IMG/VR virus record: IMGVR_UViG_3300023174_000525
Location: 1-28,166 of that record
From: a virus
Strand: one strand, 5' to 3'
Length of the DNA: 28,166 nucleotides
Position numbers and translations under genes: made by a program. A model generated the notes under the pieces. The model worked only from the letters and a program-made list of their open reading frames with translations. It searched no databases and was not told the origin of the DNA. Positions 536 to 23,602 of the stretch are shown here, in pieces; the stretch's first letter is position 1, and each line of letters starts with the position of its first letter.

Positions 536-979
536 TTAGGCAGTACGTACGATAGACCTCAGCATCCAGCCATGCTTGGCGTGAATGTCGGTACGATCCT
601 GCAAGAAGTTAGATAGGCCGATCATGCCGGCGGCTTCCGCCTCGGTGTAGGCCTTCTTGAGGGTATTCATGACGATGCCGTTATCGATGAGGAGCTTAGA
701 CATCATCACCAAAGAGCTGGGAATGTTGAGCTCGTCTTGAATTGAAGTCAGCTCCTGAAAGCGTGTGAAGCTACCGGGAGCAAATCCGTCAGCGGCTCTG
801 ATGTGTTCTGCGATGGCGTCAGTGGCCAGCCAGAGCTCGTTATAGAGGCCCTCTAAGAACGAGTGGTACTGTGGAAAGTCCGGTCCAGTGACGTTCCAGT
901 GAAAGTTATGAGTCTTTAGATACATCGCGAAGGTATCAGCCAAGACTTCCTTAAGGCTCTGAATAACCGGACTTTCCAT
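536..979 (-). CDS. dps: Dps-family DNA-binding/ferroxidase mini-ferritin
   Basis: 147 residues, the usual Dps core length. The dinuclear ferroxidase ligands are all present with Dps spacing: H27, H39 (12 apart), D54 (15 further) and E58 (4 further), inside the typical HNFHWNVTGPDF...YHSFLEGLYNEL context. Such proteins form dodecameric shells that oxidise and store iron using peroxide, and some coat DNA. The N-terminus is short, without the Lys-rich tail linked to DNA binding in E. coli Dps, so iron or peroxide detoxification is the safer inference. A late-type GATAAATA box and a small hairpin lie just upstream, suggesting late expression. Function by family; role in infection inferred. Confidence 0.93.
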   Translation of the reverse strand: MESPVIQSLKEVLADTFAMYLKTHNFHWNVTGPDFPQYHSFLEGLYNELWLATDAIAEHIRAADGFAPGSFTRFQELTSIQDELNIPSSLVMMSKLLIDNGIVMNTLKKAYTEAEAAGMIGLSNFLQDRTDIHAKHGWMLRSIVRTA

Positions 980-11661: not shown

Positions 11662-11737
11662 TGGTGACTCCAACGGGATTCGAACCCGTATCTCCACCTT
11701 GAGAGGGTGATGACCTGAACCGTTAGTCGATGGAGTC
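11662..11737 (-). tRNA. tRNA-Glu (anticodon CTC)
   Basis: 76 nt with encoded CCA. Acceptor GACTCCA/TGGAGTC pairs fully; anticodon stem CACC/GGTG with loop CTCTCAA gives CUC; T-arm ACGGG-TTCGAAT-CCCGT is canonical. It reads GAG. Confidence 0.93.
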
Positions 11738-11742
11738 ATAAT

Positions 11743-11818
<76 letters not shown>

Positions 11819-11826
11819 TTGTTTAT

Positions 11827-11909
11827 TGGTAGGGACGGTCGGACTCGAACCGACAAGCCAAAGCCGCAGATTTTGAGTCTACTGTGTTTACCAATTTCAC
11901 CACGTCCCC
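11827..11909 (-). tRNA. tRNA-Leu (anticodon CAA)
   Basis: 83 nt, type II with a long variable arm. Acceptor GGGGACG/CGTCCCT, anticodon loop CTCAAAA, T-arm GTCGG-TTCGAGT-CCGAC, encoded CCA. It reads TTG. Confidence 0.93.
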
Positions 11910-11916
11910 ATAATGT

Positions 11917-12004
11917 TGGCGGAAGGGGTAGGATTCGAACCCACGGAGGCTTTCACCTCTCTAGTTTTCAAGACTAGCGCCTTAAGCCTCTCGGCCACCC
12001 TTCC
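11917..12004 (-). tRNA. tRNA-Ser (anticodon TGA)
   Basis: 88 nt, type II. Acceptor GGAAGGG/CCCTTCC, anticodon stem CTAGT/ACTAG with loop CTTGAAA, long variable arm, T-loop TTCGAAT, discriminator G and CCA. First tRNA after the promoter at 12014-12042. Confidence 0.94.
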
Positions 12005-12152
12005 ACAACTTGTATAATACACTCGGCCACTTTCCTATGTAACGATTTTGTAACATGAACAAAAGATCGTTATATAAGTGATCTAGTACTTCTTGTGAAG
12101 ACTCTCTATCTATTCGATCGCTGAGATTCTTCAGTCTTTCATTATCATTCAT
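11982..12152 (-). CDS. Possible small protein running into tRNA-Ser
   Basis: A 56-codon frame (MNDNERLKNLSDRIDRESSQ...) starting 2 nt after the stop of the basic 51-residue gene. The upstream AAGAAG could serve as a weak ribosome site. The first 30 codons look protein-like (helical, charged), but the frame continues through the tRNA promoter and stops inside tRNA-Ser. If it is real, its C-terminus reflects a later join to the tRNA cluster. Low to moderate confidence. Confidence 0.35.
   Translation of the reverse strand: MNDNERLKNLSDRIDRESSQEVLDHLYNDLLFMLQNRYIGKWPSVLYKLWKGGREA
12014..12042 (-). promoter_or_regulatory. Promoter for the Ser-Leu-Lys-Glu tRNA cluster
   Basis: Minus strand TTACAT (12042-12037), 17-bp spacer, TATTAT (12019-12014), 10 bp before the tRNA-Ser 5' end. 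Confidence 0.65.
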
Positions 12153-12154
12153 AC

Positions 12155-12310
12155 TTACTTCTTACGCTTATTCGTACGACCATGGCTTCCGCCAGTCAAT
12201 TTGGCTCGACCACCATTACCAGACTTAGTAAAAGTTGCGCGTGAACCATCTTTATATTCGCGAATATAACCAGATTTATCACGCTTAACAGTCTTAAACT
12301 TGGTAGTCAT
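12155..12310 (-). CDS. 51-residue basic Gly-rich protein
   Basis: MTTKFKTVKRDKSGYIREYK...GNGGRAKLTGGSHGRTNKRKK. Very basic with Gly/Lys/Arg-rich C-terminus and a probable beta-hairpin in the first half (KTVKRDKSGYIREYKDGSR). GGAGAAG lies upstream of ATG 12310, which overlaps the previous stop (TGATG). Nucleic-acid binding is plausible from composition only. No family recognised. Confidence 0.72.
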   Translation of the reverse strand: MTTKFKTVKRDKSGYIREYKDGSRATFTKSGNGGRAKLTGGSHGRTNKRKK

Positions 12311-12471
12311 CACTCTTCTCCAAGAAGCTCTCCGAGATAGTAGTTCTGTTGAAGCGTATGCAGATCTTCGTAGAGCTTATCTAGCTCTTCCATAGAAGCA
12401 CCATCAGCCAGCCTCTTATCTATAAAGCGCGTAAACTCGATGATCGCATTTAGTTCTTCGTCTTCAGTCAT
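12310..12471 (-). CDS. 53-residue acidic helical protein
   Basis: MTEDEELNAIIEFTRFIDKR...EELDKLYEDLHTLQQNYYLGELLGEE: two acidic helices. AGGA lies 8 nt before ATG 12471. It begins 17 nt downstream of tRNA-Tyr and is probably cotranscribed with that tRNA. It is coupled through TGATG to the basic 51-residue gene, an acidic/basic pair that could interact, though this is only an inference from charge. Confidence 0.68.
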   Translation of the reverse strand: MTEDEELNAIIEFTRFIDKRLADGASMEELDKLYEDLHTLQQNYYLGELLGEE

Positions 12472-12487
12472 ATCATCATCCTAGAGT

Positions 12488-12570
12488 TGGTGGAGGGAGT
12501 AGGTAACGCTCCTACACAGCCGAAGCGGGAGATTTACAGTCTCTTGGGCTCACTTTTGCCCAGCCCCTCC
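12488..12570 (-). tRNA. tRNA-Tyr (anticodon GTA) with non-canonical D- and T-loops
   Basis: 83 nt with encoded CCA and a short type II variable arm (CCG-CTT-CGG). Acceptor GGAGGGG/TCCCTCC pairs (one G-U); anticodon loop CTGTAAA gives GUA. The T-arm pairs (GTAGG/CCTAC) but its loop is AGCGTTA instead of TTCRANY, and the D-loop AAAAGTGA lacks the usual GG. The standard D-T elbow contacts therefore cannot form. Either a divergent functional tRNA or one that is decaying. Confidence 0.72.
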
Positions 12571-12580
12571 AAGAATAGCT

Positions 12581-12649
12581 CCGGACACTGTCGCAGTCCG
12601 GCATCGGTTAGTTATTTAAGCGTCTCCCATTGATGCTGCAGCCTGGGAG
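12581..12649 (-). other. Two hairpins in the tRNA-fMet to tRNA-Tyr spacer
   Basis: The 128-base spacer 12571-12698 has no gene. It contains CTCCCA/TGGGAG (12649-12644 and 12629-12624, 14-nt loop with a TGCTGCAGC core) and CCGGAC/GTCCGG (12601-12596 and 12586-12581, 9-nt loop). Neither is followed by a T run, so processing structures or remnants of a lost tRNA are more likely than terminators. Confidence 0.45.
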
Positions 12650-12698
12650 AGAATTATTACCTAACGTCCGAGTCTGTTTCAACGCTAAAGGACCGTTT

Positions 12699-12773
12699 TG
12701 GTTGCAGGAGATGGAATTGAACCATCGACCTCTTGGGTATGAACCAAGCGAGCTGCCACTGCTCCATCCTGCG
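12699..12773 (-). tRNA. Initiator tRNA-fMet (anticodon CAT)
   Basis: 75 nt with encoded CCA. The first acceptor pair is C1 x A72, unpaired, the hallmark of bacterial initiator tRNA that permits formylation; the rest of the acceptor (GCAGGA/TCCTGC) pairs. The D-stem has A11-U24 (GAGC/GCTC). The anticodon stem CTTGG/CCAAG carries two rather than three of the usual G-C pairs, and the loop is TTCATAC. T-arm GATGG-TTCAATT-CCATC. Confidence 0.85.
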
Positions 12774-12779
12774 TTAATC

Positions 12780-12857
12780 TGGCGATCTCTAGTGGATTCG
12801 AACCACTGACCCACAGCTTAGAAGGCTGTTGCTCTGATCCAGCTGAGCTAAGAGACC
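12780..12857 (-). tRNA. tRNA-Arg (anticodon TCT)
   Basis: 78 nt with encoded CCA. Acceptor GGTCTCT/AGAGATC, canonical D-arm, anticodon stem CAGC/GCTG with loop CTTCTAA, T-arm AGTGG-TTCGAAT-CCACT. Its first 10 bases are also the end of the endonuclease gene upstream. It reads AGA. Confidence 0.93.
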
Positions 12858-13171
12858 TTAAGATAATCTTGTAAAACAATAAGATTAAGTTTTTTATTTT
12901 CCAAATAACCTAAAGTAGTATTGCATGGATGACATAAAATACCACGTACTTTATTTGTAGTATGACAGTGATCTATATAGCCACCATCATATTTAGAAAA
13001 CATGATTAAATCTTCTTTGCAAAGAGCACACTGATTATTCTGCTTTTCGTAAAGTTTAATTTGATCTAACTTTGTTAGACCATAACGATTTAATCCATTT
13101 CTGCATGTATTACAAGCAAGGCCTCTTTTATCTGCTGGTAATACACTATTACAGTGTTTACAATGTTTCAT
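12848..13171 (-). CDS. Endonuclease VII-family HNH (homing-type) endonuclease
   Basis: 107 residues. Two zinc-knuckle cysteine sets (C4, C7, C20, C23 and C48, C51, C80, C83) enclose the catalytic beta-beta-alpha core D67-H68-C69-H70 ... RGILCHPCN, the pattern of recombination endonuclease VII relatives and many free-standing phage nucleases. GGAGG lies upstream of ATG 13171. The gene is visibly more AT-rich than its neighbours. Its TAG stop is formed by the conserved T8-A9-G10 of tRNA-Arg. A late promoter inside an RBS-hiding hairpin precedes it. A homing nuclease is the best reading; a resolvase role like T4 gp49 is less likely at this short length. Confidence 0.85.
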   Translation of the reverse strand: MKHCKHCNSVLPADKRGLACNTCRNGLNRYGLTKLDQIKLYEKQNNQCALCKEDLIMFSKYDGGYIDHCHTTNKVRGILCHPCNTTLGYLENKKLNLIVLQDYLKVS

Positions 13172-13173
13172 AT

Positions 13174-13209
13174 AGTTACCTCCGTATGTTTATTTATACA
13201 GAGGTAACT
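13174..13209 (-). promoter_or_regulatory. Late promoter TATAAATA inside an RBS-sequestering hairpin
   Basis: Minus strand TATAAATA (13198-13191) lies between the arms AGTTACCTC (13209-13201) and GAGGTAACT (13182-13174). With one T-G pair and an inner GTAT/ATAC the stem reaches 14 bp with an 8-nt loop. The 3' arm contains the GGAGG ribosome site. Transcripts starting at the late promoter lack the 5' arm. Confidence 0.75.
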
Positions 13210-13225
13210 CTTGACTCTAGAGCAA

Positions 13226-13390
13226 CTACTGCTCCCAAGATATAGTACACATACCAGTCTTCTCGTTCTCTATGTATGTGTACGCTATCCCGTCTTTCTT
13301 AAGAGATCTGGCTAGTGGAACCATGCCCGACTTAGTCCAAAACTCAGCCTTATACTTTATCTTATCGTAGGAGTACTTTACTTTCTTCAT
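13226..13390 (-). CDS. Hypothetical 54-residue protein
   Basis: MKKVKYSYDKIKYKAEFWTK...GIAYTYIENEKTGMCTISWEQ. Basic N-terminus and probable beta-rich C-terminus. Its ATG overlaps the upstream stop (ATGA at 13390-13387), so translation is coupled to the 53-residue gene. The product shape (short strand, helix with PLARSLKKDG, two strands) recalls small phage proteins of unknown role. No terminator is evident between it and the endonuclease gene. Confidence 0.68.
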   Translation of the reverse strand: MKKVKYSYDKIKYKAEFWTKSGMVPLARSLKKDGIAYTYIENEKTGMCTISWEQ

Positions 13391-13548
13391 GCAGCGATCT
13401 TAGCCTGTGGCTTGGCCATGAAGCGCAGCTGAGCGGTCTTGCCGTAGCGATGACGCATGTTGTCCCAGTACTTCCACGCAGAGTACTCGTTGTTGAAGTC
13501 TGCGCGAGCCAGAACCATACCGTTACTCTCGACTACTACCGTGTACAT
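13387..13548 (-). CDS. Hypothetical 53-residue protein
   Basis: MYTVVVESNGMVLARADFNN...AWKYWDNMRHRYGKTAQLRF. It opens with a beta-hairpin, followed by a helix with aromatic residues and a strand. GGAG (13558-13555) lies 6 nt before ATG 13548, and an upstream ATG overlaps that site in another frame. First gene after a strong TTGACA/TAGAAT promoter (13573-13601). Function not recognised. Confidence 0.72.
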   Translation of the reverse strand: MYTVVVESNGMVLARADFNNEYSAWKYWDNMRHRYGKTAQLRFMAKPQAKIAA

Positions 13549-13572
13549 GTCGTTCTCCATAAGTTATAAGTC

Positions 13573-13601
13573 ATTCTATCACGTATTCATGCAGGTGTCA
13601 A
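13573..13601 (-). promoter_or_regulatory. Sigma70-type promoter for the 13.5 kb mini-genes
   Basis: Minus strand TTGACA (13601-13596), 17-bp spacer, extended -10 TGA-TAGAAT (-10 at 13578-13573). It overlaps the 3' end of the GNAT gene. Confidence 0.82.
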
Positions 13602-14030
13602 CAACTTTTTTAACCTAATCGCATCTTTTCCGTTCTCGTAGTACTTTGGAAAGATGCCGTACTGTTCAAATCCAAATCTCTTGTAGATGTTAAGAGCTCT
13701 CTCGTTGTCTTGTTCTACTTCTAAGAAGAGCTCTTCTAACTCTCTCTCACGCGCGTCTCTCTCGAAGTCTTGCAAGAAAGATAAGAGGATTCCTCTCTTA
13801 CGAGCGTCAGGCATTACACCGACACTGTATAGTCTCGCTCTCTTACTCGTAAAGAGATACACACCTATGCAGTAAGCGACTGGAAGTGCATCTTCAAAGA
13901 TAGTGACTCGACTTCGATTGCTCCTCAAGTGCATGAGGAACTCTTTTCGCGTGATGCGCTCGGTCTCGAATGAGACTGTGTGCATTCCTACTAGAACATC
14001 GATGTCACTATCACGTGCGTGTCTTATCAT
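13587..14030 (-). CDS. GNAT-family N-acetyltransferase, RimI-like
   Basis: 147 residues, a complete single GNAT domain. Strand beta4 and the acetyl-CoA loop are clear: ARLYSVGVMPDARKRGILL at about residues 72-90, with the R-x-R-G pyrophosphate-binding turn, followed by EELFLEVEQDNERALNIYKR and FGFEQYGIFPKYY, the order seen in RimI-type protein or peptide acetyltransferases. The substrate is unknown; candidates are a host protein amino group or a small amine. The ribosome site before ATG 14030 is weak (AAGAAG). The gene follows tRNA-Trp by 18 bases and probably shares its transcript. Confidence 0.85.
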   Translation of the reverse strand: MIRHARDSDIDVLVGMHTVSFETERITRKEFLMHLRSNRSRVTIFEDALPVAYCIGVYLFTSKRARLYSVGVMPDARKRGILLSFLQDFERDARERELEELFLEVEQDNERALNIYKRFGFEQYGIFPKYYENGKDAIRLKKLLTPA

Positions 14031-14048
14031 GATTGACTTCTTAAAGAA

Positions 14049-14122
14049 TGGCGAAGGTGTGGAGGATCGAACTCCAGATTGCGGTTTTGGAGACCGCCGT
14101 GTTACCGCTACACTACACCGAC
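14049..14122 (-). tRNA. tRNA-Trp (anticodon CCA) with a defective acceptor stem
   Basis: 74 nt with encoded CCA. Anticodon stem GCGGT/ACCGC with loop CTCCAAA, D-stem GTGT/ACAC, T-arm TGGAG-TTCGATC-CTCCA are all good. The acceptor 5' strand GTCGGTG against CACCTTC leaves mismatches at 2-71 (T-T) and 3-70 (C-T). The mismatched 5' end abuts the degenerate tRNA next to it, as if joined by deletion. Confidence 0.8.
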
Positions 14123-14176
14123 AAGAGGCTGGACTCGAACCAGCGACTAAAAGTTCTACCGCTGAACTACTCTCTA
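14121..14176 (-). pseudogene. tRNA-like remnant lacking the anticodon arm
   Basis: 56 nt. A good D-arm (TAGTTCAGCGGTAGAAC) is followed by only 8 nt (TTTTAGTC) and then a perfect T-arm GCTGG-TTCGAGT-CCAGC. The anticodon arm is absent, the acceptor TAGAGAG/CTCTTGT pairs at only the five inner positions, and no CCA is encoded. It cannot decode. A deleted tRNA gene is the simplest reading. Confidence 0.7.
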
Positions 14177-14212
14177 CGCCAAACTGAATTGGTAGCTGTG
14201 GTCGTCACCGCA

Positions 14213-14281
14213 TGATACTATGGGATTCGAACCCATTGCTCGACCTTTCAGCCAGGAAGTCCCCCATGCTTCTCAGTATCG
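14213..14281 (-). pseudogene. tRNA-like element with irregular anticodon arm
   Basis: About 69 nt. Inner acceptor GATACT/AGTATC, D-stem GAAG/CTTC with a G-rich loop, and T-arm ATGGG-TTCGAAT-CCCAT are clear. The interval between D- and T-arms is 19 nt, too short for a normal anticodon arm and variable loop, and no CCA follows. An outer pair GGTAGC (14286-14281) / GCTACC (14196-14191) can extend it. Either a decayed tRNA or a structured RNA derived from one. Confidence 0.55.
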
Positions 14282-14290
14282 CTACCAAAC

Positions 14291-14368
14291 TGGCTCGGCG
14301 AGTAGGATTTGAACCTACCTTATTCTCGGTTAACAGCCGAGCGCGCTCACCTAGAGTGCTATCGCCGA
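14291..14368 (-). tRNA. tRNA-Asn (anticodon GTT)
   Basis: 78 nt with encoded CCA. Acceptor TCGGCGA/TCGCCGA fully paired, anticodon stem CTCGG/CCGAG with loop CTGTTAA, T-arm GTAGG-TTCAAAT-CCTAC. The D-stem has one A-C mismatch. Its first 10 bases overlap the end of the HNH gene. Confidence 0.88.
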
Positions 14369-15569: not shown

Positions 15570-15793
15570 TCATCCTCGTCAAAGAGTGCGGAGTTCTTAT
15601 GTACTACTATTAGACATCTAACAGCTTGTTCACCGCACACACATTTGGCTATATTTAGAGCGTCTCTATAGTTGCGAGAGTGCAACTTAAATGCGTGTAG
15701 TCGAATATCATGTGGTAAGAGATACGTCAGCGCATAAGTCTTTTCAGCTGGAATGTCGGCGTCACGAAACACGCTTAGTCTTTCTGCGGACAT
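15566..15793 (-). CDS. Hypothetical 75-residue protein
   Basis: MSAERLSVFRDADIPAEKTY..., a mixed alpha/beta sequence with CVCGEQAVRC in the middle and an acidic end (FDEDE). It overlaps the zinc-binding gene upstream by 19 bases in another frame, and the gene downstream by ATGA. The ribosome site is poor, so coupled translation is likely. No family recognised. Confidence 0.62.
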   Translation of the reverse strand: MSAERLSVFRDADIPAEKTYALTYLLPHDIRLHAFKLHSRNYRDALNIAKCVCGEQAVRCLIVVHKNSALFDEDE

Positions 15794-16158
15794 CCATAAA
15801 AGTCACACTCAGATCCGATGGTAATAGACTGAACGATGCCACACTTGATGCAGCGGCCCATGCGATCGATCCTACCAGCCTTAGGAGTCTTAGTTGCTGC
15901 TTCTTCTTGCTTCTTTCGCTCTTTAATCTCCATGATGTCGTAGCGAGTGCCAGTAGAGCCGCGCGCCTTCTGCTCTAGGTGCTTATGGAGCTGAAGGATC
16001 ATCTTCAGAGTAAACTCGTCAGTAGTCGTCATGTCTACGATCAGACACTCAGCACCATACTGATCCGTATAGTAAGCTACTCCGCCGGCATCAGTACGCT
16101 TCGCGTAGATCGTCTGATTTGGAAGCTCAGCTACTTTAATGAAGGGATACTCAGTCAT
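15775..16158 (-). CDS. Hypothetical protein with C-terminal Cys cluster
   Basis: 127 residues from ATG 16158 (AGGTG upstream; a GTG three codons earlier is possible). The first 60 residues look alpha/beta (YPFIKVAELPNQTIYAKRTD, YGAECLIVDM), a charged helix follows (EIKERKKQEEAA), and the C-terminus has CIKCG...SECDFYGC, four Cys suited to a zinc ribbon. The acidic/basic linker and zinc knob suggest nucleic-acid or protein binding. It directly follows the glycosyltransferase gene with a 3-base offset, so it is probably on the same mRNA. Function not recognised. Confidence 0.68.
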   Translation of the reverse strand: MTEYPFIKVAELPNQTIYAKRTDAGGVAYYTDQYGAECLIVDMTTTDEFTLKMILQLHKHLEQKARGSTGTRYDIMEIKERKKQEEAATKTPKAGRIDRMGRCIKCGIVQSITIGSECDFYGCPQKD

Positions 16159-16159
16159 A

Positions 16160-17173
16160 TCATTCACCTTGAATTGGTATCAAATTCTCTAGAAAGATCT
16201 CTTTGCATCTTTCCCATGTATATTGTTTACTCGTATCATAAACTGCTTTTCTATCTATGTCAAGGCAGTTCGCAACCGCTACTGTTAGATTCTCGTCCAT
16301 CGATCCGTTGACGCCCTCGATCACTATAGATTTTGGACCAGTAACAGGATAAGTAGCAATGGGAGTACCAGAAGCGATACTTTCAATAAGGACAACACCA
16401 AAAGTATCGTTAGTAGAAGGAAAAACAAAAATATCGGCATCACGATAAAGTTGTCCAAGATCTTCTCCAGTTCTGGTTCCAACGAACTCGACGTGTGGCC
16501 AGTGACCTTCTAGTTCTTTTCTGGCTGGACCGTCGCCTACGACTATGACGTGCACGTTATTACGACCAAAGTTGTAAGGATTTATCCTACAAAAATCTTT
16601 TATGTTCTTCTCGTGTGACACTCGACCTACGTAGAGTATCGTTAAGCTCTTCTTACTCTTAGCATATCTCGGCTTGAAGATACTTCTATCTACGCCTCGA
16701 GTCCACACGATCATATTCTTGAAGCCGCGAGCTTCTAACTCTTCTCTCATGCAATTGGTTGTTACTAACACACGCGAAGACGCTGAGTGAAACCACTTCA
16801 GATAAGCGTAACCTAATCCGAGGGGAAACACTGGAATGCGAGCCTTAATGAACTCAGCGAATTTGGTATGGAAAGAAGTAGTGAATCGTAGCTTATTGCG
16901 TATGCAGTACATGCGCGCCGCGAGACCGAGTGGACCCTCAGTGGCGATGTGAATGTGCTTAGGATTGTAAAACTTTAGTAACTTTCTGATCTGACGAAAC
17001 TCGTAACAGATCTGAATCTCTTTGTATCCGGGCAGCGAGAAAGACTTGAACATAGAGGGCTCGATGACGAAGACCTCGTGCCCATCTTTCTCCAGCTGTT
17101 CTTTTAGATTAACGAGAGTGGTAACGACTCCGTTAATCTGTGGCGACCACGCGTCTGTTACTATGCAGATCAT
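16160..17173 (-). CDS. GT4-family glycosyltransferase, Agt-like (glycolipid synthesis)
   Basis: 337 residues, GT-B fold. The N-terminal acceptor domain opens MICIVTDAWSPQINGVVTTL, with HIATEGPLGLAAR and FTTSFHTKFAEF, all typical of the group that includes bacterial glycosyltransferases paired with PlcP. The C-terminal nucleotide-sugar domain has ILYVGRVSHEKNI, VVGDGPAR and the GT4 end motif DTFGVVLIES-x-ASGTP (about 275-290). In marine and soil bacteria Agt-type enzymes glycosylate diacylglycerol during phosphate starvation. The start ATG overlaps the stop of the metallophosphoesterase gene (TAATG). Family firm; lipid acceptor inferred from sequence pattern and neighbour. Confidence 0.85.
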   Translation of the reverse strand: MICIVTDAWSPQINGVVTTLVNLKEQLEKDGHEVFVIEPSMFKSFSLPGYKEIQICYEFRQIRKLLKFYNPKHIHIATEGPLGLAARMYCIRNKLRFTTSFHTKFAEFIKARIPVFPLGLGYAYLKWFHSASSRVLVTTNCMREELEARGFKNMIVWTRGVDRSIFKPRYAKSKKSLTILYVGRVSHEKNIKDFCRINPYNFGRNNVHVIVVGDGPARKELEGHWPHVEFVGTRTGEDLGQLYRDADIFVFPSTNDTFGVVLIESIASGTPIATYPVTGPKSIVIEGVNGSMDENLTVAVANCLDIDRKAVYDTSKQYTWERCKEIFLENLIPIQGE

Positions 17174-17949
17174 TAGTATTCTCTAATTACTTTCATTGTA
17201 CCGTCTTTTTGATACTCGAGTATTTGCCAAACACCTTCATGTGTCTCTACGAGGGCAGTCTTACTCTCTACCCAGTCGCCGTCGTTCATGTAGATGGTAT
17301 CGTCTATGAGCTTTATCTCGGCCGTATGAATGTGACCGCAGATGATACCGTCATAGTTATTCTTGCTGCAGTACTCGGTGATTAGATCCTCGAAGCGATT
17401 GATGTAAGCCAGAGCTTGCTTCGTCTTCTTCTTAAGGAAAGCAGAGATGCTCCAGTACTCCATTCCGAGAGCGACTCGAATGTGATTGAGCTTGGTGTTG
17501 ATCACGACTAAGATGTCGTAGAGCACGTCGCCGATGCTCATCCAGAACTTGTTCTCGTGACGCATCATGGAGTCAAACATGTCGCCGTGGACCACGAGGA
17601 ATTGTCTGCCGTGTAAGTCCCAGTACGTGTGACGATTAAGAATGTCGATATTACCAAGGGCGATGTCGTATCTTAGAAACGGTCGAAGTGCCTCGTCGTG
17701 ATTGCCGACGATGTAGTGTACTTTCGTATCTCTCTTAGCTGCGGTGAGAATCCTGCGAATCACGTTGGAGTGACTCTGATTCCAGTAGTACTTACGCTTG
17801 AGTCTCCATCCGTCGATGATGTCACCGATCAGATATAGATTCTCTGACGTGTTGTGCTTGAGAAAGTTGCAGAGCTCTTCTGCCTTACATCCCCTCGAAC
17901 CTAAGTGAACGTCACTGATGAAGATGGATCTATACTTTGGAGAATCCAT
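17173..17949 (-). CDS. Metallophosphoesterase, PlcP-like phospholipase C / LpxH-like
   Basis: 258 residues with the full calcineurin-type metal set: D13-x-H15 (SDVHLGSRG), GD43 (LIGDIIDGW), GNH84D, H121-G-D123 and GH206-x-H208. The segments LYLIGDIIDGWRL, GMEYWSISA and MNDGDWVES are those of the alphaproteobacterial group annotated UDP-2,3-diacylglucosamine hydrolase, to which Sinorhizobium PlcP belongs; PlcP splits phosphatidylcholine to diacylglycerol and phosphocholine. The next gene is the matching glycosyltransferase. A late box GATAAATA lies 32 bp upstream of ATG 17949. An LpxH role in lipid A synthesis is the alternative, but the gene pair argues for PlcP. Confidence 0.82.
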   Translation of the reverse strand: MDSPKYRSIFISDVHLGSRGCKAEELCNFLKHNTSENLYLIGDIIDGWRLKRKYYWNQSHSNVIRRILTAAKRDTKVHYIVGNHDEALRPFLRYDIALGNIDILNRHTYWDLHGRQFLVVHGDMFDSMMRHENKFWMSIGDVLYDILVVINTKLNHIRVALGMEYWSISAFLKKKTKQALAYINRFEDLITEYCSKNNYDGIICGHIHTAEIKLIDDTIYMNDGDWVESKTALVETHEGVWQILEYQKDGTMKVIREY

Positions 17950-17988
17950 TTGACGCTCTCTCGTTTGTGGGAGACGTAGTTATTTATC
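17950..17988 (-). promoter_or_regulatory. Late-type promoter box for the plcP-agt pair
   Basis: GATAAATA on the minus strand (17988-17981), overlapping the end of the upstream gene. Downstream, ACGTCTC can pair with GAGAGCGT (one bulged base), partly covering the GAGAGAG ribosome site. Confidence 0.5.
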
Positions 17989-19635: not shown

Positions 19636-19711
19636 TGGTAGTCCCGACAGGATTCGAACCCGTTCCTCAACCGTTATGAGCGACTCGTGCTGACCATTAC
19701 ACCACAGGACC
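19636..19711 (-). tRNA. tRNA with CAT anticodon: elongator Met or Ile2
   Basis: 76 nt with encoded CCA. Acceptor GGTCCTG/CGGGACT pairs (two wobbles), D-arm GTGT/GCAC, anticodon loop CTCATAA, T-arm ACGGG-TTCGAAT-CCTGT. The acceptor pairs C4-G69 and C5-G68 are those that TilS recognises in tRNA-Ile2, whereas E. coli elongator tRNA-Met has U-A and A-U there. Ile2 (reading ATA after lysidine modification) is therefore possible. Confidence 0.85.
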
Positions 19712-19716
19712 ATGAT

Positions 19717-19902
19717 CTATTCTACTTCACTATAGCTATCTGGCTTTAAGCCACCAATGATTAACTCTTCGTCATATTTCTTACGCGCTTCAAATGCTTC
19801 TTCATACGTATCATAAGTCTCGAGGATGCCGTATGAGTTCTTATCTTTAGCCATTCGAATCACCGAGTATGTAAGCTTACCCATGATATTAGTACGCATC
19901 AT
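19717..19902 (-). CDS. Hypothetical 61-residue protein
   Basis: MMRTNIMGKLTYSVIRMAKD...YEEAFEARKKYDEELII. The core GILETYDTYEEAFEARKKYD is a strand followed by a helix, a layout recurring in several small proteins of this region (25206-25737). Start uncertain among ATG 19902, 19899 and 19884; GGAG favours the second. It lies between the two tRNA genes, 6 bases from tRNA-Met/Ile2. Function unknown. Confidence 0.65.
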   Translation of the reverse strand: MMRTNIMGKLTYSVIRMAKDKNSYGILETYDTYEEAFEARKKYDEELIIGGLKPDSYSEVE

Positions 19903-19916
19903 ACTCCTTGTTATGT

Positions 19917-19990
19917 TGGATCCCAGAGATGGATTCGAACCACCATAAACAGATTCAGAGTCTGCGGTCCTACCATTAGACGATCCGGGA
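19917..19990 (-). tRNA. tRNA-Gln (anticodon CTG)
   Basis: 74 nt with encoded CCA. Acceptor TCCCGGA/TCTGGGA, starting with the weak U1-A72 pair typical of tRNA-Gln; anticodon stem CAGA/TCTG with loop CTCTGAA; T-arm GGTGG-TTCGAAT-CCATC. It reads CAG. Confidence 0.92.
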
Positions 19991-22718: not shown

Positions 22719-23003
22719 TCAGAACTTCTTATAATCTCCACCATTCGAAGACTCATGCCACTCCTTGGGCTTCACCGGAGGAGACTGTTCTCGCTGGTGA
22801 AACCAAAGATCCTCCTGAAACCGATGATTGCGCTCCTTGATGTTATTAAGAGTTCGTTCATGCGATTCATGTATAGCCATGCCTACAGCCCACGTTACAT
22901 AGAATAGAGCACTACAGAAGCAAGCGAAAGCCAGATCTTTATCGACCTTACTCGCGCCCCAGATGACGAACGGAAGCGCCAAACACACGACAAATCTATT
23001 CAT
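22719..23003 (-). CDS. 94-residue membrane protein with two spans
   Basis: MNRFVVCLALPFVIWGASKV, then DLAFACFCSALFYVTWAVGM: two hydrophobic segments separated by a short charged loop, followed by a long polar tail (residues about 45-94, His/Gln/Lys-rich). ATG overlaps the phosphoesterase stop (TAATG at 23003), so both are made together. Function unknown. Confidence 0.72.
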   Translation of the reverse strand: MNRFVVCLALPFVIWGASKVDKDLAFACFCSALFYVTWAVGMAIHESHERTLNNIKERNHRFQEDLWFHQREQSPPVKPKEWHESSNGGDYKKF

Positions 23004-23602
23004 TACATGATCCTCTCATTTCCAGAGCGAAAACCGACCTCTCCACCCTCTGCTCTTATCTTCTTGATGACGTCTTCGAAGAGAATTGGAGCGAAATTAG
23101 TCTGTTCTACGCACACACAGTGATATCTAGGGTCAATTTTATCAGAATAGAGCACATTTCCGCTCTTGGCGTCGACTCCACGCGCTTTCTTGACGCGATT
23201 CGTGTGTAGATGACCATGAATGTTGACTCCGAAGCGCCCCAGAGACTCGGAATGGACCGGAATGTGACTCAAGATCATCCCGTTCATCACGTGATAGCCT
23301 CGGAGCGATCGAAAGTGCTCGAGATAGAGCTCGTCAGCGAAGATATCGTGATTTCCGCGTATCAAGACCTTGTCTCCGTTGAGTCGACCGAGCGTCTTGA
23401 GCGCTTTTTTGTTGATTACGACGTCTCCGAGGTGATATACCTTGTCGTTTGGCTTGACTACCGCGTTCCAGTTAGCCACGAGAGCCTCGTCCATCTCATT
23501 AGGATCATCCCAGGGGCGCACCGGCGCTCCATCCGCAGTGGTGAACTTACAGATGTTAGCGTGGCCGAAGTGCGTATCAGACGTCAAGAAGACACTAGGC
23601 AT
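23003..23602 (-). CDS. Calcineurin-like metallophosphoesterase
   Basis: 199 residues with a complete metal site: D9-x-H11 (SDTHFGH), GD60 (YHLGDVV), GNH85D (RGNHDIF), H112 (LSHIPVH) and GH130-x-H132. The SDTHFGHANI opening and short length match phage and bacterial phosphoesterases of the YfcE/MJ0936-like group, distinct from the PlcP-like enzyme at 17173. Substrate unknown; phosphodiesters, nucleotide signals or RNA ends are candidates. GAGG lies 5 nt before ATG 23602. Confidence 0.88.
   Translation of the reverse strand: MPSVFLTSDTHFGHANICKFTTADGAPVRPWDDPNEMDEALVANWNAVVKPNDKVYHLGDVVINKKALKTLGRLNGDKVLIRGNHDIFADELYLEHFRSLRGYHVMNGMILSHIPVHSESLGRFGVNIHGHLHTNRVKKARGVDAKSGNVLYSDKIDPRYHCVCVEQTNFAPILFEDVIKKIRAEGGEVGFRSGNERIM

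Follow-up and report, generated by a model that had tools for sequence, protein, structure and literature searches.

The window analysed here, a virus fragment of 28,166 bases from IMG/VR, carries a T4-like replication core of gp43 DNA polymerase, gp41 helicase and UvsX, and by this gene content is from a T4-like phage. On its minus strand lie two genes that the first-pass annotation had described as a lipid-remodelling pair, overlapping in TAATG at 16160-17949, and both open reading frames are confirmed there. The upstream, plcP-like gene (17173..17949) encodes a calcineurin-like metallophosphoesterase of 258 amino acids (Pfam Metallophos, 7e-13), its product being a predicted phospholipase C acting on phosphatidylglycerol and phosphatidylethanolamine (PG/PE). 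The downstream, agt-like gene (16160..17173) encodes, as had been claimed, a GT4 glycosyltransferase, with 337 amino acids and matches to Pfam Glyco_trans_1_4 (5e-25) and Glyco_transf_4 (4e-19), and is a predicted diacylglycerol glycosyltransferase. At the junction the plcP stop and the agt start overlap by a single base, the shared A. The metal ligands of the phosphoesterase are complete, all seven being found (D13, H15, D43, N83, H121, H206 and H208), and the segments GMEYWSISA, MNDGDWVES, ATEGPLGLAAR and SFHTKF, which had been picked out from the two proteins, are all present. The next open reading frame (15775..16167, minus strand), which has no Pfam family, has its start within the 3' end of the glycosyltransferase gene and is probably co-transcribed with the pair. 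A second calcineurin-like phosphoesterase, unrelated to the first, is also found in the window (23003-23602, minus strand; PHROG 547, E 3e-50).

Judging by comparison with close relatives, both genes are maintained by selection. The usable ratio is that of the glycosyltransferase against its 84%-identical relative L086, where dN/dS is 0.06-0.07. The window PlcP and that of the relative L006 have 92% identity in protein and ~80% in DNA, and as the dS of PlcP is saturated against both L006 and L007, no ratio was used for this gene.

Pfam and NCBIfam assign the phosphoesterase to the calcineurin-like superfamily, with matches to LpxH falling below cutoff, and its seven metal ligands are invariant across 55 relatives. 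Among viral contigs one protein scan found 361 phage relatives of PlcP. The cellular relatives are PlcP-type proteins of 43-58% identity, amongst them a P. aeruginosa PA3219-type protein at 47.5%, these having been gathered by similarity to the phage proteins so that the sampling is not neutral. In the tree the window PlcP falls inside the PlcP family, which also holds the PA3219-type protein, and within a group that is mostly of phage origin, whilst the LpxH proteins of E. coli and Haemophilus are split from all PlcPs on a long branch with a support of 100, many of the inner forks being weak. The phosphoesterase does not cluster with LpxH, as the PlcP assignment of the first-pass annotation had implied. 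An LpxH identity was rejected on this separation and on the LpxH motif GNRDF, which is GNHDE in the window, the site of the arginine being histidine in all 63 cellular PlcPs compared; this histidine is H84 of the window protein, which also has N222 at a site that is V in LpxH. The predicted fold has a pLDDT of 87 and a pTM of 0.81, with a helical cap region of low confidence. Two PlcP genes from MAGs, on contigs bearing the labels Hyphomonas and Hellea (L088 and L089), fall in the phage group, and these may be misbinned phage contigs.

For the glycosyltransferase the best NCBIfam match, below cutoff, is alpha-monoglucosyldiacylglycerol synthase. The phage glycosyltransferases group together (support 85) inside a larger clade of support 98, which also holds cellular glycosyltransferases adjacent to plcP and the Agt1 of P. 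aeruginosa, with Agt2 and an Acinetobacter enzyme next to this Agt clade. WaaG, WaaB, WcaC, WcaI and WcaL are outside it, the outgroup branches being very long, and on this placement a lipopolysaccharide or colanic-acid identity was rejected, which agrees with the Agt-like assignment made beforehand. The P. aeruginosa PA3218-type protein has 39.2% identity to the window enzyme. We take the P. aeruginosa locus to be PA3219-PA3218 from the two genes together with their neighbours (a tRNA-binding protein and an adenylate cyclase).

In GTcp, a diacylglycerol glycosyltransferase of Pelagibacter, 13 residues are essential by mutagenesis, D256 and the acceptor residues H104, R163 and W320 among them, and the change D256E cut activity by >90% (PMC8231724). 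Mapped by way of a Pelagibacter orthologue that carries all thirteen at the published positions, these residues are present as 13 of 13 in the window enzyme, with the acceptor residues intact as H102, R159 and W320, compared with 2-8 in eight other GT4 enzymes. The full set is found in 23 of the 38 phage glycosyltransferases; position 256 is E instead of D in 14 of the 38, and is D in the window. The model has a confident GT-B fold (pLDDT 93.5) with MshA, BshA and PimA as its neighbours in the PDB. The 'phage' glycosyltransferases in named records reach 23-31% identity only, and the top match of this kind is surrounded by bacterial housekeeping genes in a record that bears the label phage.

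To judge by its recurrence, the pair is a conserved module found in many aquatic phages. A total of 119 viral pair loci were collected, which became 96 once near-copies were removed. In a reverse test, loci were found through the glycosyltransferase alone with PlcP unused, and 68 of the 70 with at least 1 kb of sequence upstream proved to be preceded by a plcP gene in the same orientation, at a distance from the glycosyltransferase of up to ~1 kb in nearly all and of up to 150 bases in most. An Agt-like gene is downstream on the same strand in 43/78 phage plcP loci. The T4-type capsid gene gp23 is present on 7 pair contigs, including those of 218, 289 and 369 kb, and a terminase match on 14 of 23 contigs, and because of this they are considered to be phage genomes and not misassigned host DNA. 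The named phage records annotate the gene only as a putative LpxH.

The gene that accompanies plcP is not always a GT4. In 25 further viral loci a GT2 is found in the flank examined (L011, L019, L028, L035, L057, L073, L076 and 18 more), directly after plcP in those inspected, where it replaces the GT4 and in some is itself followed by a fatty acid desaturase; such loci may represent another way for phages to make glycolipid from diacylglycerol. In another locus (L014, 4737-5618) a RimK-like ATP-grasp ligase is found between plcP and the glycosyltransferase, and in four (L016, L026, L029 and L066) a CHASE2-adenylate/guanylate cyclase-like protein is encoded shortly downstream of the phage plcP or pair. 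In a Parabacteroides plasmid (L178, 2983-4904) the gene directly after a PlcP relative is for a different glycosyltransferase; a close relative of this plasmid PlcP is carried by a contig of a human-gut phage (L004).

Genes for phosphate and lipid metabolism are found beside plcP in a number of these phages. A PstS-like gene immediately precedes the pair in one 218-kb phage (L008/L010) and, in divergent orientation, adjoins plcP in the Pelagibacter phage Mosig; no PstS gene was noticed within the 28 kb of the window. A fatty acid desaturase is near the phage plcP in 8 loci and a PAP2 phosphatase in 2. The ribonucleotide reductase genes nrdA and nrdB are near it in ~29 loci (e.g. L009, L017, L039, L048, L054 and L064), which is consistent with a demand for DNA precursors.

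The regulation of the pair may differ between the window phage and its relatives. A box resembling the late promoters of T4, GATAAATA, is at 17981..17988 on the minus strand, 38 nt upstream of the plcP start, and is also found upstream of plcP in the 92%-identical L006. The window has five ATAAATA words, each of them on the coding strand and a short way ahead of a start codon, a number not above chance as shuffles have a mean of 2.5 and 8/100 reach five, and a sigma-70 promoter scan of the pair region was at chance level. The same GATAAATA box is also found before a gene for a ferritin-like protein (536-979, minus strand; Pfam Ferritin, 5e-21), which is probably Dps.

There is precedent for phage phosphorus genes being under the control of a Pho box (PMC10976474). 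The Pho-box consensus CTGTCAT-N4-CTGTCAY, of 14 positions, was sought in the 150 nt before plcP in 104 nonredundant phage loci. Sites agreeing at 10 or more of the 14 positions were found in 33 of the 104 loci compared with 7.5 expected from shuffles, those agreeing at 11 or more in 15 loci compared with 1.1 expected, and a matrix for which cellular plcP promoters were the sole training set gave 13 compared with 1.6 expected, most of the sites being 39-54 nt ahead of the start. A partial-credit scoring was designed after the sequences had been seen, thus reliance is placed on the strict-consensus and cell-trained tests only. By these two tests no Pho box is found before plcP in the window or in its closest relative L006, whilst about a third of the related phage loci have such a site upstream of plcP, as would be expected of a phage phosphorus gene controlled by host PhoB. 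As GATAAATA is present in place of a Pho box in both the window and L006, regulation in the window phage may tentatively be called late-type. The first-pass annotation had read expression from a late-type box; the box itself stands, late expression has weak support in this window, and the relatives point instead to control of the PhoB type. As the window is without a Pho box, the link of the module to phosphate therefore rests on the relatives.

The same genes in the same order are a validated lipid-remodelling operon in P. aeruginosa (PMC8528852) and SAR11 (PMC4796936). The P. aeruginosa plcP-agt1 (PA3219-PA3218) lipid-renovation operon (PMC8528852) shares with the window both families, their order and genes that overlap or nearly so, but is chromosomal and has a Pho box, whereas the window pair is phage-encoded and has none. 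In Candidatus Pelagibacter HTCC7211 (PMC4796936, PMC8231724) the gene after plcP is likewise that of an Agt-clade GT4, GTcp, with the 13 essential residues, although these are host genes and the phage proteins fall largely in groups of their own. The pstS and phoA genes of cyanophages under host PhoBR (PMC10976474) resemble the phage pair in being genes of phosphorus supply with Pho boxes, and PstS adjoins plcP in two phages, yet they serve to take up outside phosphate and the pair would remodel membrane lipid. The nearest case in a named phage, Mosig_00120 of Pelagibacter phage Mosig EXVC030M, is a PlcP relative of 51% identity beside the PstS-like gene, but it is annotated as LpxH and has no adjoining glycosyltransferase.

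It is most likely that the phage pair carries out the two-step route of these bacteria (PMC4796936, PMC8528852, PMC8231724). The PlcP would hydrolyse the PG and PE of the host membrane, in a reaction predicted to be Mn-dependent, to diacylglycerol and a phosphorylated headgroup, and the Agt-like enzyme would then move glucose, galactose or glucuronic acid from a UDP-sugar onto the diacylglycerol, so that the membrane would stay intact as the glycolipid takes the place of the phospholipid. In water poor in phosphate the main benefit would most likely be a supply of phosphorus for making phage DNA, and the charge and surface of the membrane would change too. The probability that the pair is such a module, turning phospholipid to glycolipid with phosphorus as the most likely benefit, is put at roughly 0.8. 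The PlcP/Agt-like reading with which the analysis began is well supported by sequence, through family placement, active sites and the known operon order; what the two enzymes catalyse, which sugar and lipid they use and how the phage gains are inferred.

It is possible, if rather doubtful, that the same chemistry serves another purpose, with a change in the envelope (its charge, receptor presentation or membrane-protein function) blocking superinfection or aiding assembly or lysis and the release of phosphate being a by-product. Phage glycosyltransferases are commonly envelope modifiers (PMC7029224), the GT2 and desaturase genes near plcP would suit such a role, and in the window there is a box of the late type and none of the Pho type; however, the PstS neighbours and the Pho-box-like promoters of the relatives link the module to phosphate. 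It is very unlikely that the phosphoesterase is an LpxH of lipid A synthesis and that the glycosyltransferase modifies lipopolysaccharide, even though public records name relatives UDP-2,3-diacylglucosamine diphosphatase and the nearest solved fold to the PlcP model is that of LpxH. That likeness, at 16-19% identity, is as expected for a distant lipid-acting cousin, whilst on the phage profile E. coli LpxH scores 33 bits and P. aeruginosa PlcP 336, and the long, fully supported LpxH branch, the replacement of GNRDF by GNHDE and the position of WaaG, WaaB and the colanic-acid GT4s outside the Agt clade all speak against it.

Slighter still is the chance that the two proteins act on nucleic acid, as a DNA or RNA phosphoesterase and a glycosyltransferase for modified phage DNA bases. 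T4 does glycosylate its own DNA, by enzymes of other GT families, and there is a weak PHROG match to a DNA repair exonuclease family. A DNA-modifying glycosyltransferase was judged unlikely given that the enzyme is inside the diacylglycerol-transferase clade with its acceptor residues intact, and the homologues found paired in this way in cells synthesise glycolipids (PMC8528852, PMC4796936).

The lipid-remodelling reading can be taken further, to a widespread auxiliary pathway of phages, switched on in many of the relatives by the phosphate-starvation regulator of the host, which would turn the phospholipids of infected cells to glycolipids so that membrane phosphorus enters phage DNA; we regard this wider proposal as evenly balanced. 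The first-pass annotation knew of no described phage case, and no phage plcP-agt pair was found in the open-access literature searched, preprints and most subscription papers being outside its scope. Whilst the chemistry is known, the phage setting therefore appears, provisionally, to be new. Aquatic bacteria meet a scarcity of phosphorus in large part by remodelling their lipids, and in the open literature searched phages are already known to have genes for phosphate uptake but not this route. If the route works as predicted, viruses would change the lipids of the cells they infect where the water is short of phosphorus, and part of the glycolipid signal read as phosphorus stress in bacteria could be due to infection. 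With the pair it can be tested directly whether phage production draws on the phosphorus of the membrane.

The window also has ten tRNA genes in two groups (11662-14368 and 19636-19990, minus strand), with an endonuclease VII-like gene (12848-13171) sitting among them.
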